64,000 bases of DNA from Vicinamibacterales bacterium (GCA_030827135.1 JAURFE010000001.1:1186368-1250367), one strand, 5' to 3'; shown: positions 28,956 through 34,162, counted from the first letter of the stretch. Numbers and translations are program-made. Notes: generated by a model not told the origin, from the letters alone.

Positions 28956-29174
28956 ATGGATGAGGGTCGCCGGGCATTCCTGAAGGCAATTGCCGGCCGG
29001 TCTCTGGCTGTGACCGGGGTGGCGATTACCGCCGTTGCGCTTAACGAACGGCGGTCTGACTTGAAGCGGGTCTGGGATCGGACGAAGCCGCTGGTCAAGA
29101 GTTTTTCCCCACAGGCCACCGTCTACGCACAGACCACCGGCGCAGGCACCTTCACTCTGAAGGGGACAACGTAG
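28956..29174 (+). CDS. Small protein with Tat-like leader, possible peptide substrate
   Basis: The 72-residue product has GGAGGT at 28945-28950, seven bases upstream, so it is very likely translated. RRAFLKAIAGRS resembles a twin-arginine leader and is followed by a hydrophobic stretch (LAVTGVAITAVAL). The C-terminal half is short and basic (KRVWDRTKPLVKSF), ending TTGAGTFTLKGTT. No family is recognised. Its location 0.6-1.7 kb from PqqD-like and HprK-like genes makes it a candidate modified or exported peptide. That role is inference. Confidence 0.68.
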   Translation: MDEGRRAFLKAIAGRSLAVTGVAITAVALNERRSDLKRVWDRTKPLVKSFSPQATVYAQTTGAGTFTLKGTT

Positions 29175-29203
29175 CAGGGGCCACCAAATCTACAGGAGCG
29201 GTC

Positions 29204-29806
29204 ATGATTCGAATGAGTCGGTGCATAGTGGTGCTCACGGCGTTGCTGGCGAGCGCCGCCCTCCCCTCGACCACGTGGGCGCAGACGCAGTTGGCGACAG
29301 GCAAACCTACCGTCTTCAAAGTCACCGTGACGAAGGTGGAGCTCTACAACGGCACGTCGTTTGTCACGATCTTCAGCGGATCATCCCAGCTGGATCTTGT
29401 GACGGCCGCCGGGGAGGCGGCGTTTCCGGGAATCTCCACCTTGTCTCTCCCGACGGGAACCTACAGTCAGATTCGCGTCACCTTCTCGAACAGCTTTGTG
29501 ATGCGAGGCTCCCTGGCGTCCGCAGGCACGACGTACTACACGACAGCGACGACGCTCAACGGCGGCACAGCGTCTCAGGCCAGCACCAGCGCCGCCGCGA
29601 TTGCTGATGCCACGATCATCAACCCCGACTGGGGTGCGGCCGGCGCGGGAGTGGTGCAGACAATAGCCATTACGCCGGTGACCATTTCGGCCGGAGGGTC
29701 GTACGCGCCAACGCTGAAGTTCACGGTCACAAACTCGCTCGTGCTCAGCACAGCGGGCGGCATCTTCTTCTTCACACTCGCCGGCGTGACGGTCTCCATC
29801 GTCTAG
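29204..29806 (+). CDS. Secreted DUF4382-like protein
   Basis: The 200-residue protein has a signal peptide (IVVLTALLASAALPSTTWAQ). A beta-sandwich-like domain rich in Thr, Ser and Gly follows (VFKVTVTKVELYNGTSFVTI, LSLPTGTYSQIRVTF). The order 'value, P-x-G-x-Y-x-x-I-R' is typical of DUF4382 and related surface domains. It lies 29 bp after the small Tat-leader gene on the same strand, and a shared transcript is likely. It converges on the HprK-like gene. Confidence 0.72.
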   Translation: MIRMSRCIVVLTALLASAALPSTTWAQTQLATGKPTVFKVTVTKVELYNGTSFVTIFSGSSQLDLVTAAGEAAFPGISTLSLPTGTYSQIRVTFSNSFVMRGSLASAGTTYYTTATTLNGGTASQASTSAAAIADATIINPDWGAAGAGVVQTIAITPVTISAGGSYAPTLKFTVTNSLVLSTAGGIFFFTLAGVTVSIV

Positions 29807-29813
29807 AACGCTG

Positions 29814-30665
29814 TCAGGCCCTGCTCGGCACCATTTCGACGATGCGGCTGAGCAGGGCTCGCGCTGAGGCAACATCGCGCGAGTGGACCCGCCACAGCTG
29901 GCAGTGCTGAAGGACGTGAATGACGTGGTCGTAGAGTTGTTCGTCCGAACCGACGGGGGGAAAGCAGTATCGCAGGACCTCTGTCAGCACGTCGCCGGGT
30001 ACGAGGGGCTCCAGACGTGGAACACACGTGGGGTCGTACGCAGGAAACAGGAGCGTGTGGAGGCGGACCGGCGTGTGCCTGACATGGCGTGGATGGTACC
30101 GCGCCATCATCCTGTCGTGATACACCAGACGGCCGCGCCTTACCGTGTGTGCGGCCTCGAAGGTCTCGGCATAACGGCGAGACAGGGTCAACACCTGCGG
30201 AAAGGGATGCACCGAGAGCGTCTGCGGATCAACGGGAGTCACTTCTTCCGCGACGAGATCCAGGCCGAGTTCAATCAACTGAAACGTGCTGCTCGTCTTT
30301 CCTGTGTCGGACAGGCCGAGGGTGACGATCGCGTGGTTCCCGAGCGCCACGGCCCCCGCGTGGAATCCAATCCACCCCTCCAGTCTGGCGATCAGCGCGT
30401 TCTCGAGATCCTCCTCCAGCGCGAACAGCAGGTCGATGCCGGTGGCATAGGTCCCGCCGCGGCGGCCGTCGCGCAACAGCGTCCACCCGGCCTCCTCCAC
30501 CCGCACTTCGTAGCCGTGGTCTACCCTGGCAGGGATGCCTTCTGCCAGCACGTGGAAGAAGACGTCACGCGCCGCAGTCTCCAGTGTCTCAGGCACCAGA
30601 ACGGAGACCGCCAATCGCGAAAACTCAAGATGAAGCGAGGTCATCACAATCTGCACACGTGACAA
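29814..30665 (-). CDS. HPr kinase-like P-loop protein
   Basis: The 283-residue protein resembles HprK C-terminal-domain kinases found beside PqqD-like proteins in peptide-modification loci. The P-loop is GLSDTGKTSS at residues 117-126, preceded by IGFHAGAVALGNHAIVTL. A capping acidic motif follows (DLVAEEVTPVDPQTLSVHPFP). No N-terminal HPr-sensor domain of classical HprK is present. In lasso-peptide and PqqD systems such kinases phosphorylate the peptide; here the substrate is unknown. It overlaps the end of the PqqD gene by 41 bp, with internal ATG 30638 as an alternative start. Confidence 0.8.
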   Translation of the reverse strand: MSRVQIVMTSLHLEFSRLAVSVLVPETLETAARDVFFHVLAEGIPARVDHGYEVRVEEAGWTLLRDGRRGGTYATGIDLLFALEEDLENALIARLEGWIGFHAGAVALGNHAIVTLGLSDTGKTSSTFQLIELGLDLVAEEVTPVDPQTLSVHPFPQVLTLSRRYAETFEAAHTVRRGRLVYHDRMMARYHPRHVRHTPVRLHTLLFPAYDPTCVPRLEPLVPGDVLTEVLRYCFPPVGSDEQLYDHVIHVLQHCQLWRVHSRDVASARALLSRIVEMVPSRA

Positions 30666-30912
30666 CGATGCCCAGTGTTACGAACTGATCGAGCGCCGCC
30701 TGCAGGTCCGTGCGCAGCGTCTCTTGGTCTGCCTCGAAGATTTCCTGCATGACATACAGGAGTTCGTCGAAGGTCAGCGGCTCCTCGAGGCTGGTCCATA
30801 TCGCGCGTGCCGTCTCACTCAACACGTGAATGGCGCGGTGGGCCTCAACGTAGATCGCCAAGTCATTCCCCACGGTCTTTTCCGTCACCCGCGATGATCG
30901 AAGATAACGCAT
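30625..30912 (-). CDS. PqqD-like peptide chaperone (RiPP recognition element)
   Basis: The 95-residue protein has the PqqD fold pattern: a beta-hairpin start (GNDLAIYVEAHRAIHVLSETARAIW) and then helices (EEPLTFDELLYVMQEIFE, TDLQAALDQFVTLGIV). PqqD-type proteins bind leader peptides and present them to tailoring enzymes. The start is ATG 30912 or GTG 30888. It overlaps the HprK-like gene downstream and the start of the divergent nucleotidyltransferase gene upstream. Confidence 0.82.
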   Translation of the reverse strand: MRYLRSSRVTEKTVGNDLAIYVEAHRAIHVLSETARAIWTSLEEPLTFDELLYVMQEIFEADQETLRTDLQAALDQFVTLGIVVTCADCDDLASS

Positions 30913-32063
30913 CTGCCATCAAATCCTATCAGTGGCTCGTCGCCATGTGTCGGCGCTGGCTGCAGATCCGGGAAGGCGGCGGGATTGATCCTGAGGAGCT
31001 CTCAGGGGATCAACTCCCCGACTGGACGTCTGTTGAGCGACTCGCGTACGCACACGGCGTGGAACCACTGCTGTTTTCCGTGTTGACGCATGAGACGGCG
31101 TGTGGAGCCCCCGTACCCGAGGCCCTGCGTCGTCGATGGGAAGCGGCCTACTACGGAAACCGGCTGCGTAACATCGATGCGGTGGGCCTGCTCGGCCGTA
31201 TTGCCGCAACGAGTGAGGCGCGCGGGGCACCGGTCATGGGCCTGAAGGGCCCCGCGGCGATCGCCGGCGTGTATGGCGACCTTGGGCTCCGCGTGATGGC
31301 GGATCTCGATCTGTTGTGCCACCGCGAGGACTTGTTGACGGTGACTCGTTCGGCCCGCGCCGAAGGCTTCACCGGTGGCCAGGTGTACGTCCATCACGTC
31401 CTTCTGGAGTTCGGCGGGCCCGGGGGCGGCTACTGCGAGATCCACTTCACCATACAGGACGTGATCGCCCGCAGGGAGGCGTTCATCGCGGACGCCTGGC
31501 TACGCCGGACTCAGGTTCTCGCAGAAGGCGTGTCGCTACCTGTGATGCCGCTGGAACACCAGATCGTCTTCGACGTCGGCCACATGGTCAATCACGGCTA
31601 CGAGATGGACCTCAAGCACGCCATGGACCTCGCAGGACGGCTGCGGCTCTCGCGACACGAGATCCGATGGAACGTCCTGTTCGACTGGCTTGCCGCCACG
31701 GAGCTGACGCGAAGCTTCTGGTTACTGGTCCGCACGCTGGAACAGCTGTTGCGGCTGCCCCTGGTTGATTCGTGCGATGGCGAGCCGTCTCCGGAGGAGA
31801 TCTCCGCATTCGCCGACCAGTTGATGGACTGGTCGGCCTCGCTGGGCCTTGCGCGGCCGTTTGTCCTCGCACCCGGAGTGCGACGACGACAGACACTGCT
31901 ATCGCAGGGTCTGTACGCGTGGCGACGGATGTGCCCACCGCTCGTGGCGCTGCAGGCGGCCCGGGATATCCCGACGCGGGCGCGGGCCGCGGCCGACCTC
32001 CCCCGCTATTGGATCGCCGTTGTCACGGACGTGGTGCGCCGCTCCAGCCGAGGACCGCGGTGA
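30894..32063 (+). CDS. Nucleotidyltransferase-fold protein (NTP_transf_5 type)
   Basis: The protein has about 389 residues. WTSVERLAYAHGVEPLLFSV and GAPVMGLKGPAAIAGVYGDLG precede the metal-site-like RVMADLDLLCHREDL, matching the NTP_transf_5 pattern (G-x-R-x-x-x-D-x-D). GHMVNHGYEMDLKHAMDLA and HEIRWNVLFDWLAATELTRS fit the later helical part. Such proteins accompany PqqD and HprK-like kinases in several bacterial peptide-modification loci. Transfer of a nucleotide is inferred. The ATG lies inside the start region of the divergent PqqD gene. Confidence 0.8.
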   Translation: MIEDNASAIKSYQWLVAMCRRWLQIREGGGIDPEELSGDQLPDWTSVERLAYAHGVEPLLFSVLTHETACGAPVPEALRRRWEAAYYGNRLRNIDAVGLLGRIAATSEARGAPVMGLKGPAAIAGVYGDLGLRVMADLDLLCHREDLLTVTRSARAEGFTGGQVYVHHVLLEFGGPGGGYCEIHFTIQDVIARREAFIADAWLRRTQVLAEGVSLPVMPLEHQIVFDVGHMVNHGYEMDLKHAMDLAGRLRLSRHEIRWNVLFDWLAATELTRSFWLLVRTLEQLLRLPLVDSCDGEPSPEEISAFADQLMDWSASLGLARPFVLAPGVRRRQTLLSQGLYAWRRMCPPLVALQAARDIPTRARAAADLPRYWIAVVTDVVRRSSRGPR

Positions 32064-32125: not shown

Positions 32126-34162
32126 ATGCTTCGTGTGCCCCGATTAACGTCTCCCCTGTTTTCGATCGTTCTCTCCCTCGTCTTTGCCGCCAATGCACTG
32201 GCGCAGGACACCTTCACCCCACATCACGTTGCGAAGATCCGGACCGTCGCGCAGATCGCGATCGCGCCCGACGGCACCGAGGTCGCGTACGTGCTCGCTG
32301 TACCCCGCATCCCGTTCCAGGATGACGATGGGCCGGCGTGGACCGAGCTGCATGTGGTGCGCGCGGATGGCCAGTCGCGGGCGTATGTCACCGGTGCCGT
32401 CAACGTGGCCAATGTGCGCTGGTCACCCGACGGACGAGGCCTCGGGTTCCTCGCCCGCCGCGCGGGCGATGCCACGCGCTCGCTCTACATCGTGCCGCGC
32501 GATGGCGGCGAAGCCCGCAGGGTCCTCGCCCACGCCACCGACATCGTCTCCTACGAATTCAGTCCCGACGGCACGCAGGTCGCGTTCGTCGCGCGTGATG
32601 CGGCTCCGCCCGCGCGGGCCGATCTGGTGCGACGCGGGTTCTCGCAGGAGGTCTTCGAAGAGGGGCTCCTGCTGCAGCGCGTGTGGACGGCTCCGCTCGA
32701 CGGCACGGCCGTCGGTGCGCCGCGCGTCGTCAACGCACCAGGGCACGCCACCACGATCACCTGGAACGCGGCCGGCACCCGCCTCGCCGTGCTCTATGCA
32801 CCGACGGCACTCGTCGATGACGATCTGATGGAAAAGAAGGTCCACGTCATTGATCCGACGATGGGCGAGCCGATCACGAAGTTCAACAACCCGGGAAAGA
32901 TCGGCCAGGTGGCCTGGAGCCCGGACGGCACCACGCTCGCGATGGTCTCCGCGGCCGACATCAATGACCCGTCCGAGGGCCGGCTTATGGTCGCGCCTGC
33001 CACCGGCGGCGCGCTCCGCGACGTCATGCCCGCCTACAACGCCCATGTGCGCGCCTTCGCCTGGAAAGACGCCAACACCGTCGTCTACATGGCTGAGGAG
33101 AGCGTGACCTCGGCAATTGGCGAGATTCGCAAGGACGGCACCGCGTCGCGCACGCTGATGCCGACAGGGGGCCCGGTCGTCGTCGCCATGGATCGGGCCA
33201 CGAACGGCACTGTGGCGCTGGTCGCACACACGCCGACACACCCGGCCGAGGTGTACCTGCTCGACTCAAGCAGCGCGACGCCTCGCCAGTTGACCAACAG
33301 CAATCCGTGGCTGGCGACCATGAAGCTGGCGAAGCAGGAAGTCGTGCGCTTCAAGGCGCGCGACGGGCTGGATCTTGAAGGCGTGCTTGTGCGCCCGCTT
33401 GATGAAGTGGCCGGTCGCCGGTACCCGCTCATCCTGAACGTCCATGGCGGGCCCGAAGCGCGGGACGCGCATGGCTGGGTGACGTCGTATTCGAACGCCG
33501 GCCAGATGGCCGCAGCGCAGGGATTCGCGGTGTTCTATCCGAACTATCGGGGCAGCACGGGGCGCGGCGTCGCGTTTTCCAAGCTGGGCCAGGGAGAACC
33601 CGCCGGCAAGGAGTTTGATGACCTGGTGGATGCCGTGGATCACCTCATCAACATCGGCCTTGTGGACCGCGCGAAGGTGGGCATCACCGGCGGGTCGTAT
33701 GGTGGATATGCCAGCGCCTGGGGCGCCACGTATTACTCGGAACGGTTCGCGGCGTCGGTGATGTTTGTCGGCATCAGCAACAAGGTGTCCAAGGTCGGCA
33801 CCACGGACATCGCAAACGAGGAGTTCCACGTGCACGCGCTCAAGCGGCCGTGGGATGACTGGCAGTTCATGCTGGAACGCAGTCCGGTGACACACGTCGC
33901 AAAGTCGAAGACGCCGACACTGATTCTGCACGGCACGGCCGACCCGCGCGTGAATCCTACGCAGTCGCTTGAGTTCTACCGTCACATGAAGCTGCACGGC
34001 AAGACGGTGCGTCTCGTCTGGTACCCCGGTGAGGGCCACGGCAACGCCCGGGCCGCCTCACGGCTCGATTACAGCCTGCGGTTGATGCAGTGGATGAACC
34101 ACTATCTCAAAGGGCCAGGTGGTGCCCCGCCACCGCCGGACATCGACTACCGCGAGCGGTAG
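32126..34162 (+). CDS. Exported S9 family peptidase
   Basis: ATG 32126 is preceded by AGGAG and begins a signal peptide (FSIVLSLVFAANALAQ); the frame is open upstream without support. The 678-residue product has propeller-type blades (VRWSPDGRGLGFLAR, VAWSPDGTTLAMVSA) and a C-terminal hydrolase. The catalytic Ser is in GITGGSYGGYASAW, Asp in ILHGTADPRVNPTQS and His in YPGEGHGNARA. It acts on oligopeptides, probably in the periplasm. The beta-lactamase-type gene follows 17 bp downstream. Confidence 0.93.
   Translation: MLRVPRLTSPLFSIVLSLVFAANALAQDTFTPHHVAKIRTVAQIAIAPDGTEVAYVLAVPRIPFQDDDGPAWTELHVVRADGQSRAYVTGAVNVANVRWSPDGRGLGFLARRAGDATRSLYIVPRDGGEARRVLAHATDIVSYEFSPDGTQVAFVARDAAPPARADLVRRGFSQEVFEEGLLLQRVWTAPLDGTAVGAPRVVNAPGHATTITWNAAGTRLAVLYAPTALVDDDLMEKKVHVIDPTMGEPITKFNNPGKIGQVAWSPDGTTLAMVSAADINDPSEGRLMVAPATGGALRDVMPAYNAHVRAFAWKDANTVVYMAEESVTSAIGEIRKDGTASRTLMPTGGPVVVAMDRATNGTVALVAHTPTHPAEVYLLDSSSATPRQLTNSNPWLATMKLAKQEVVRFKARDGLDLEGVLVRPLDEVAGRRYPLILNVHGGPEARDAHGWVTSYSNAGQMAAAQGFAVFYPNYRGSTGRGVAFSKLGQGEPAGKEFDDLVDAVDHLINIGLVDRAKVGITGGSYGGYASAWGATYYSERFAASVMFVGISNKVSKVGTTDIANEEFHVHALKRPWDDWQFMLERSPVTHVAKSKTPTLILHGTADPRVNPTQSLEFYRHMKLHGKTVRLVWYPGEGHGNARAASRLDYSLRLMQWMNHYLKGPGGAPPPPDIDYRER

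Follow-up and report, generated by a model that had tools for sequence, protein, structure and literature searches.

In a 64,000-nucleotide stretch of DNA from a Vicinamibacterales bacterium (the window), genes for a PqqD-like protein, an HprK-like kinase, and an NTP_transf_5-type transferase (NTP5) lie beside the gene for a 72-residue protein with a twin-arginine (Tat) leader. Our main explanation, in which we have moderate confidence, is that the window holds, in split form, a peptide-modification system that is common in Acidobacteriota, with the 72-residue protein as its precursor. The closest known system is that of the linear polyphosphorylated peptides (LPP) of Bacillota, and in our reading the window has a split and divergent version of an LPP-like system with Tat export. 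Support for the association of PqqD, HprK, and NTP5 with Tat-type proteins is good across the family and moderate in the window.

Genes and layout of the window locus

All five genes that a sequence-only reading had grouped together are present in the window, with one borderline call for the DUF4382-like protein. The 72-residue protein, which is the proposed substrate (28956..29174, + strand), carries the twin-arginine motif RRAFLK (28968..28985, +; read from the sequence). Its residues 44-61 (KPLVKSFSPQATVYAQ-TT; 29085..29138, +) include the proline motif (P-motif), a putative signal-peptidase site, and a pair of threonines. Next is the secreted DUF4382-like protein (29204..29806, +; PF14321, 25.8 bits vs. 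a cut-off of 25), a possible partner or passenger. The minus strand encodes the 276-residue HprK/PEPCK-fold kinase (29814..30644), whose Walker A motif is GLSDTGKT (30294..30317, -), and the 95-residue PqqD-like RRE protein (30625..30912; alternative GTG start at 30888). Back on the plus strand is the 389-residue NTP5 (30894..32063; its start could be near 30945). The PqqD and NTP5 genes point away from each other and overlap at their 5' ends, while the genes for the small protein and the DUF4382-like protein run toward HprK, which is transcribed in the opposite direction; the locus is therefore not a single operon. The beginnings of PqqD (-) and NTP5 (+) share 30888-30912, and separate promoters would fit only if later starts are used. 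An S9 peptidase of the Dpp5 type (32126-34162, +) starts 63 bp after NTP5. We rejected it as a member of the cassette: in a second genome with this locus (G067, described below), a different gene is downstream of the NTP5 homologue.

The PqqD-like protein matches PF05402 (36.9 bits vs. a cut-off of 23.4) and NTP5 matches PF14907 (123.7 bits vs. a cut-off of 31.2). We set aside a role in PQQ biosynthesis because the PQQ equivalog gave no match to the window's PqqD, even with E values up to 1 allowed. The kinase has no Pfam match. Its predicted kinase fold is supported by the HprK family profile, which matches HprK/P structures (1ko7, 5e-7), and by an AlphaFold2 model (pLDDT 90.1), whose Foldseek matches are PEPCK and HprK/P. 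G115 and K116 of the Walker A motif are invariant in A6. Scores of the window's proteins against our own HMMs were set aside as evidence because the window's sequences were in the training sets; we kept the absences of lasso genes that are described below.

The best NCBIfam names for the kinase and for PqqD (TIGR04352 and TIGR04353) are both from the HPr-rel-A system, and the window might be a member of that system. We think that this is very unlikely, and we rejected membership on score: 34.7 bits for the kinase and 26 bits for PqqD are far below the curated cut-offs of 200 and 35. Also, the order's true members, which score above the cut-offs, are at separate loci.

The sequence-only reading had also remarked on the absence of a radical-SAM enzyme, a lasso cyclase, or a protease, and indeed, we found no radical SAM gene or lasso cyclase in the window. 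Using profiles from local lasso loci, we found no B2 protease or AsnB across its 64 kb, nor is there a CxxxCxxC protein; the only qualification is the nearby S9 peptidase. Neither a signal peptidase nor an ABC exporter is encoded among the Pfam-scanned neighbours (22 to 42 kb). PADLOC gave 0 matches, and Rfam and promoter scans gave nothing informative. TatC is encoded in the window's genome (180.9 bits).

The 72-residue reading frame is real, since a 68% identical copy is found in the same place, beside DUF4382 and HprK, in a second genus (WY5.bin136, or G067). In G067, the DUF4382-like protein (63% identical) and HprK (59% identical) have the same order and orientation as in the window. Contig G067:C22 opens with a homologue of NTP5 (45% identical). 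We did not recover the PqqD of G067, which may fall in a gap of the assembly. The two copies of the small gene differ at 20/11/38 first, second, and third codon positions, which fits purifying selection. WY5.bin136 was the sole match when we scanned genome contigs for the small protein, and a scan of genome contigs with the window's HprK found nothing. (In other members of the order, weak single-sequence matches of the small protein were mostly noise, and we left them out.) The kinase is missing from six genomes of the same genus, so the cassette is patchy.

PqqD-Tat fusions and split forms in Acidobacteriota

PqqD, HprK, and NTP5 often co-occur in the order, and this three-gene kit recurs in Acidobacteriota from soil. 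We fetched 40 neighbourhoods from the order and called genes with our own script. At eight of these loci (L145, L147-L151, L157, and L165), PqqD runs into a segment of the form RRxxLrxlg..aPVVxSixxP..AxAQ, followed by a tail. When we compared a profile of the eight fusions to 396 Acidobacteriota genomes, we found 56 full-length copies in 41 genomes. Full-length means at least 74 bits; the next match, at 63 bits, ended at PqqD.

A second set of 40 neighbourhoods was chosen by the presence of the fusion alone, blind to the kinase and the transferase. Within 3 kb of the fusion, we found HprK in 31/40 cases, NTP5 in 33/40, either in 38/40, and both in 26/40, but about half of these loci are from one family, so they are not 40 independent events, and P values overstate their independence. 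At two loci (L223 and L240), neither HprK nor NTP5 is in reach. In the family of L231, the cassette is downstream of glycosyltransferases, an epimerase, and a PF00953 transferase. The cassette is also found in a Gemmatimonadota: plasmid 1 of Gemmatirosa kalamazoonensis KBS708 (L273; NZ_CP007129.1, 7222-10656) encodes HprK, a PqqD-Tat fusion, MauE, and NTP5. At L145 (7924-9897, +), NTP5 and HprK are apparently fused into one 657-residue protein.

Lasso-type loci in the order have the same three types of enzymes, along with B2 and/or AsnB, and the window's own genome has a second PqqD/HprK/NTP5 set with AsnB (L154; G000:C22 332001-352000). The window could be a remnant or satellite of a lasso cluster, with enzymes that serve a lasso precursor elsewhere and with the Tat protein as a bystander. 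We consider this rather unlikely. Just as in the window, B2 or AsnB was found in 0/40 of the fusion neighbourhoods; furthermore, the Tat protein stays beside HprK in another genus, and PqqD-Tat fusions are found in many genomes.

As in the fusion cassettes, HprK and NTP5 adjoin PqqD in the window. There, PqqD stops at 95 residues, the RR...P...AxA segment is on a separate gene, and the tail (TTGAGTFTLKGTT) has 0 Cys instead of being Cys-rich. Such split arrangements are found elsewhere: separate Tat proteins are one or two genes away from a free-standing PqqD at L140, L141, L162, and L170, and at L160, a separate Tat protein is near a second, PqqD-like gene. Beyond the order, the small-protein profile matched at two loci (L263 and L264), where the small protein is about 4-5 kb from HprK-PqqD-NTP5 and a multi-domain glycosyltransferase lies in between. 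The distant small-protein matches in L162, L263, and L264 are all at loci with free-standing PqqD, HprK, and NTP5. At two other loci (L267 4595-6413, -, and L268 223-2639, +), PqqD, a radical-SAM-like protein, and HprK are beside a small precursor of the YxxPxIxxxPLRPEE type.

These split forms bear on another alternative, which is that the Tat protein and the DUF4382-like protein are an exported pair of their own and the neighbouring enzymes have other targets. In its favour, the pair is conserved together in G067, and its genes are on the opposite strand from PqqD and HprK. We still consider this unlikely, as Tat proteins with the same pattern recur near free-standing PqqD (L140, L141, L162, L170, L263, and L264) and are fused to it elsewhere.

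The sequence-only reading had tied PqqD, HprK, and NTP5 to an exported small protein, and had proposed comparing neighbourhoods across Acidobacteriota, with two contrary outcomes: conservation of the trio without any small partner, or a small protein found only where the trio is absent. We saw neither outcome, and a small partner is supported by the fusions, by their neighbourhoods, and by the separate Tat proteins. For the exact 72-residue protein, the support is thinner (two genomes).

Precursor anatomy and a proposed mechanism

Across the alignment of fusions, the RR is present in 36/36 proteins and the subsequent Pro is nearly invariant. In the AlphaFold2 model of the fusion at L239 (pLDDT 89.9), the P-motif (residues 123-127) is predicted to be a strand, and the best matches for the PqqD part are leader-bound lasso RREs (TbiB1, Z 9.4; FusB1, Z 9.1). 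Judging from secondary-structure strings, the P-motif strand probably pairs with strands of the RRE, which supplies all of the other strands that are as long. In the window, KPLVKSFSPQATVYAQ-TT shares P-x-[VIL]...P...A with the fusions and fits their pattern of P-x-[VI]-x-S...P...A and then S/T. It is identical to the G067 copy except at residues 46, 47, and 54.

A Ser or Thr is found within three residues after AxA in 29/35 fusions, as compared to 52/145 control signal peptides (p about 8e-7, which overstates the independence of these related proteins). The fusions' tails are mostly 20-80 residues long and are 15.5% Cys, versus 2% for the PqqD part. Exactly six Cys are present in 20/36 tails, and four tails have none. 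The tails at L147, L148, and L145 have no Cys and contain simple repeats (TTADPG or collagen-like GPTG). At L239 (6901-7383, -), the tail (CLPSGSACTASAQCCSGICNAGTC) has knottin-like Cys spacing and weak Pfam matches to cystine-knot peptides; Foldseek matches to cystine-knot peptides cover 25 residues with E above 1, which is at the level of a hint. One fusion has a weak fulvocin C-related match, which was not traced to a member.

In LPP, discrete RREs bind leaders via a [Y/W]xxP motif (PMC13381572). Three residues before the proline, 7/9 of the separate Tat partners (L140, L141, L162, L170, L263, L264, and G067) have Y, W, or F, versus 0/35 of the fusions. This fits binding by discrete RREs and suggests that the aromatic residue may be required in trans and dispensable in cis. 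The two exceptions are L160 (V) and the window (R): the P-motif is RTKPLV in the window, which lacks the aromatic anchor, and YAKPAL in G067. The window's kinase is also unusual, as the motif after Walker A is SDE[YF]A in most of the family and AEEVT in the window and in G067, with Glu in place of the family's Asp in both. Because the peptide lacks the aromatic anchor and the kinase has this Glu, the case for the window is less certain than the case for the family. The same two changes could indicate a decayed or repurposed cassette that modifies nothing. We give this idea very little credence, as the reading frames are intact in two genera and the small gene's codon-position pattern fits purifying selection.

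Returning to our main explanation, we infer a scheme of RRE-peptide binding, phosphorylation, glycosylation, and export. The window's PqqD (the RRE) would bind the Pro-containing segment that follows the precursor's twin-arginine motif and would present the precursor to the HprK-like kinase. The kinase would place a phosphate on a Ser or Thr just after the signal-peptidase site, and NTP5 would add a sugar or a nucleotide-derived group to that phosphate. Tat would export the modified precursor, and cleavage would occur at AxA; with RRAFLK in the protein and TatC in the genome, the 72-residue protein is a predicted Tat substrate. Most relatives have the RRE and the precursor joined in a single protein whose tail is rich in Cys, while in the window they would be encoded by separate genes, and the 72-residue precursor probably acts with the DUF4382-like protein.

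By analogy to LPP and to paeninodin, phosphorylation of a peptide by the cassette is likely. Nucleotidylation, which the sequence-only reading had offered as the other possibility, has no specific support: PsmN, which is of the NTP5 type and is the only relative to have been tested, is linked to the addition of a hexose to phosphoserine, although a host glycosyltransferase is not excluded (PMC9266682). In LPP, the RRE and HprK (LppK) phosphorylate Ser3 of the core, and the S3T variant is not phosphorylated by LppK (PMC13381572). The putative modification site in the window is Thr-Thr, not Ser. We count this against our main explanation, along with RTKPLV, the kinase's E for D, the presence of the small protein in just two genomes, the lack of Cys in the tail, the lack of a single operon, the PqqD that was not recovered from G067, and the two fusion loci without the enzymes (L223 and L240).

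A broader and more tentative idea, which we slightly doubt, is a phylum-wide class of RiPPs whose precursors have a built-in recognition element, with HprK and NTP5 phosphorylating and sugar-tagging a Tat-exported, disulfide-rich mini-protein, possibly on surface polysaccharide. The window would be a split, Cys-free branch of this class. Either way, the proposal links RRE-guided phosphorylation, Tat export, and Cys-rich peptides, which were not joined in the literature that we searched, and would give a defined substrate to many PqqD-family proteins that are so far named in databases by their domain alone. If it is correct, then the LPP idea reaches beyond Bacillota, and export of a modified peptide does not always require an ABC exporter dedicated to it. 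G. kalamazoonensis KBS708 is a cultured host that carries the cassette.

Comparison with known systems

The closest known system is the LPP of Bacillota, in which an RRE, HprK, and an NTP transferase act on linear precursors (PMC13381572). The Acidobacteriota cassette has the same combination of an RRE, an HprK-like kinase, and an NTP transferase, with no cyclase. LPP precursors are linear, are 35-200 residues long, have the [Y/W]xxP motif and a modified Ser close to where the leader is cut, and are often encoded in polysaccharide loci (PMC13381572); we also count these features as likenesses. LPP clusters further include an SpI-like leader peptidase together with an MsbA-like exporter, and the system is described as limited to Bacillota (PMC13381572). 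In contrast, the cassette has Tat-like precursors, RREs that are mostly fused to the precursor, and Cys-rich tails, and is found in Acidobacteriota and on one Gemmatimonadota plasmid. As in LPP, the window encodes a discrete PqqD-type RRE, an HprK-like kinase (with D to E in the SDE motif), and an NTP transferase. It has no SpI-like leader peptidase or MsbA-like exporter in the cluster, and in place of the LPP precursor motif (YxxPxVLxHQxIxFETxxS), it has RTKPLVKSFSPQATVYAQTT (in G067, YAKPALKSFSPQ), so it lies outside LPP as defined.

Phosphorylated lasso peptides of the paeninodin/pseudomycoidin type also involve a PqqD-type B1, an HprK-like kinase, and an NTP transferase; the kinase works on the precursor, and PsmN is linked to the hexose on phosphoserine (PMC9266682). 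Unlike those systems, the window has no B2 protease or macrolactam synthetase, and its precursor is of the Tat type. RREs associated with DUF2063, which have DUF2282 precursors with Sec signals, similarly combine an RRE with a precursor that has an export signal, but they involve Sec instead of Tat and another group of RREs, and HprK or NTP5 are not mentioned (PMC12710340). In the open-licence literature, we found no description of PqqD with twin-arginine, of an HprK-related kinase with PqqD or exosortase, or of a RiPP with twin-arginine. The HPr-rel-A system (TIGR04352 and TIGR04353) likewise has an HprK-related kinase and a PqqD-family protein, but the window's proteins score far under its cut-offs. 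Overall, the window is a variant of the RRE-HprK-NTP5 kind that lies outside LPP as defined, outside the lasso systems, and outside HPr-rel-A.
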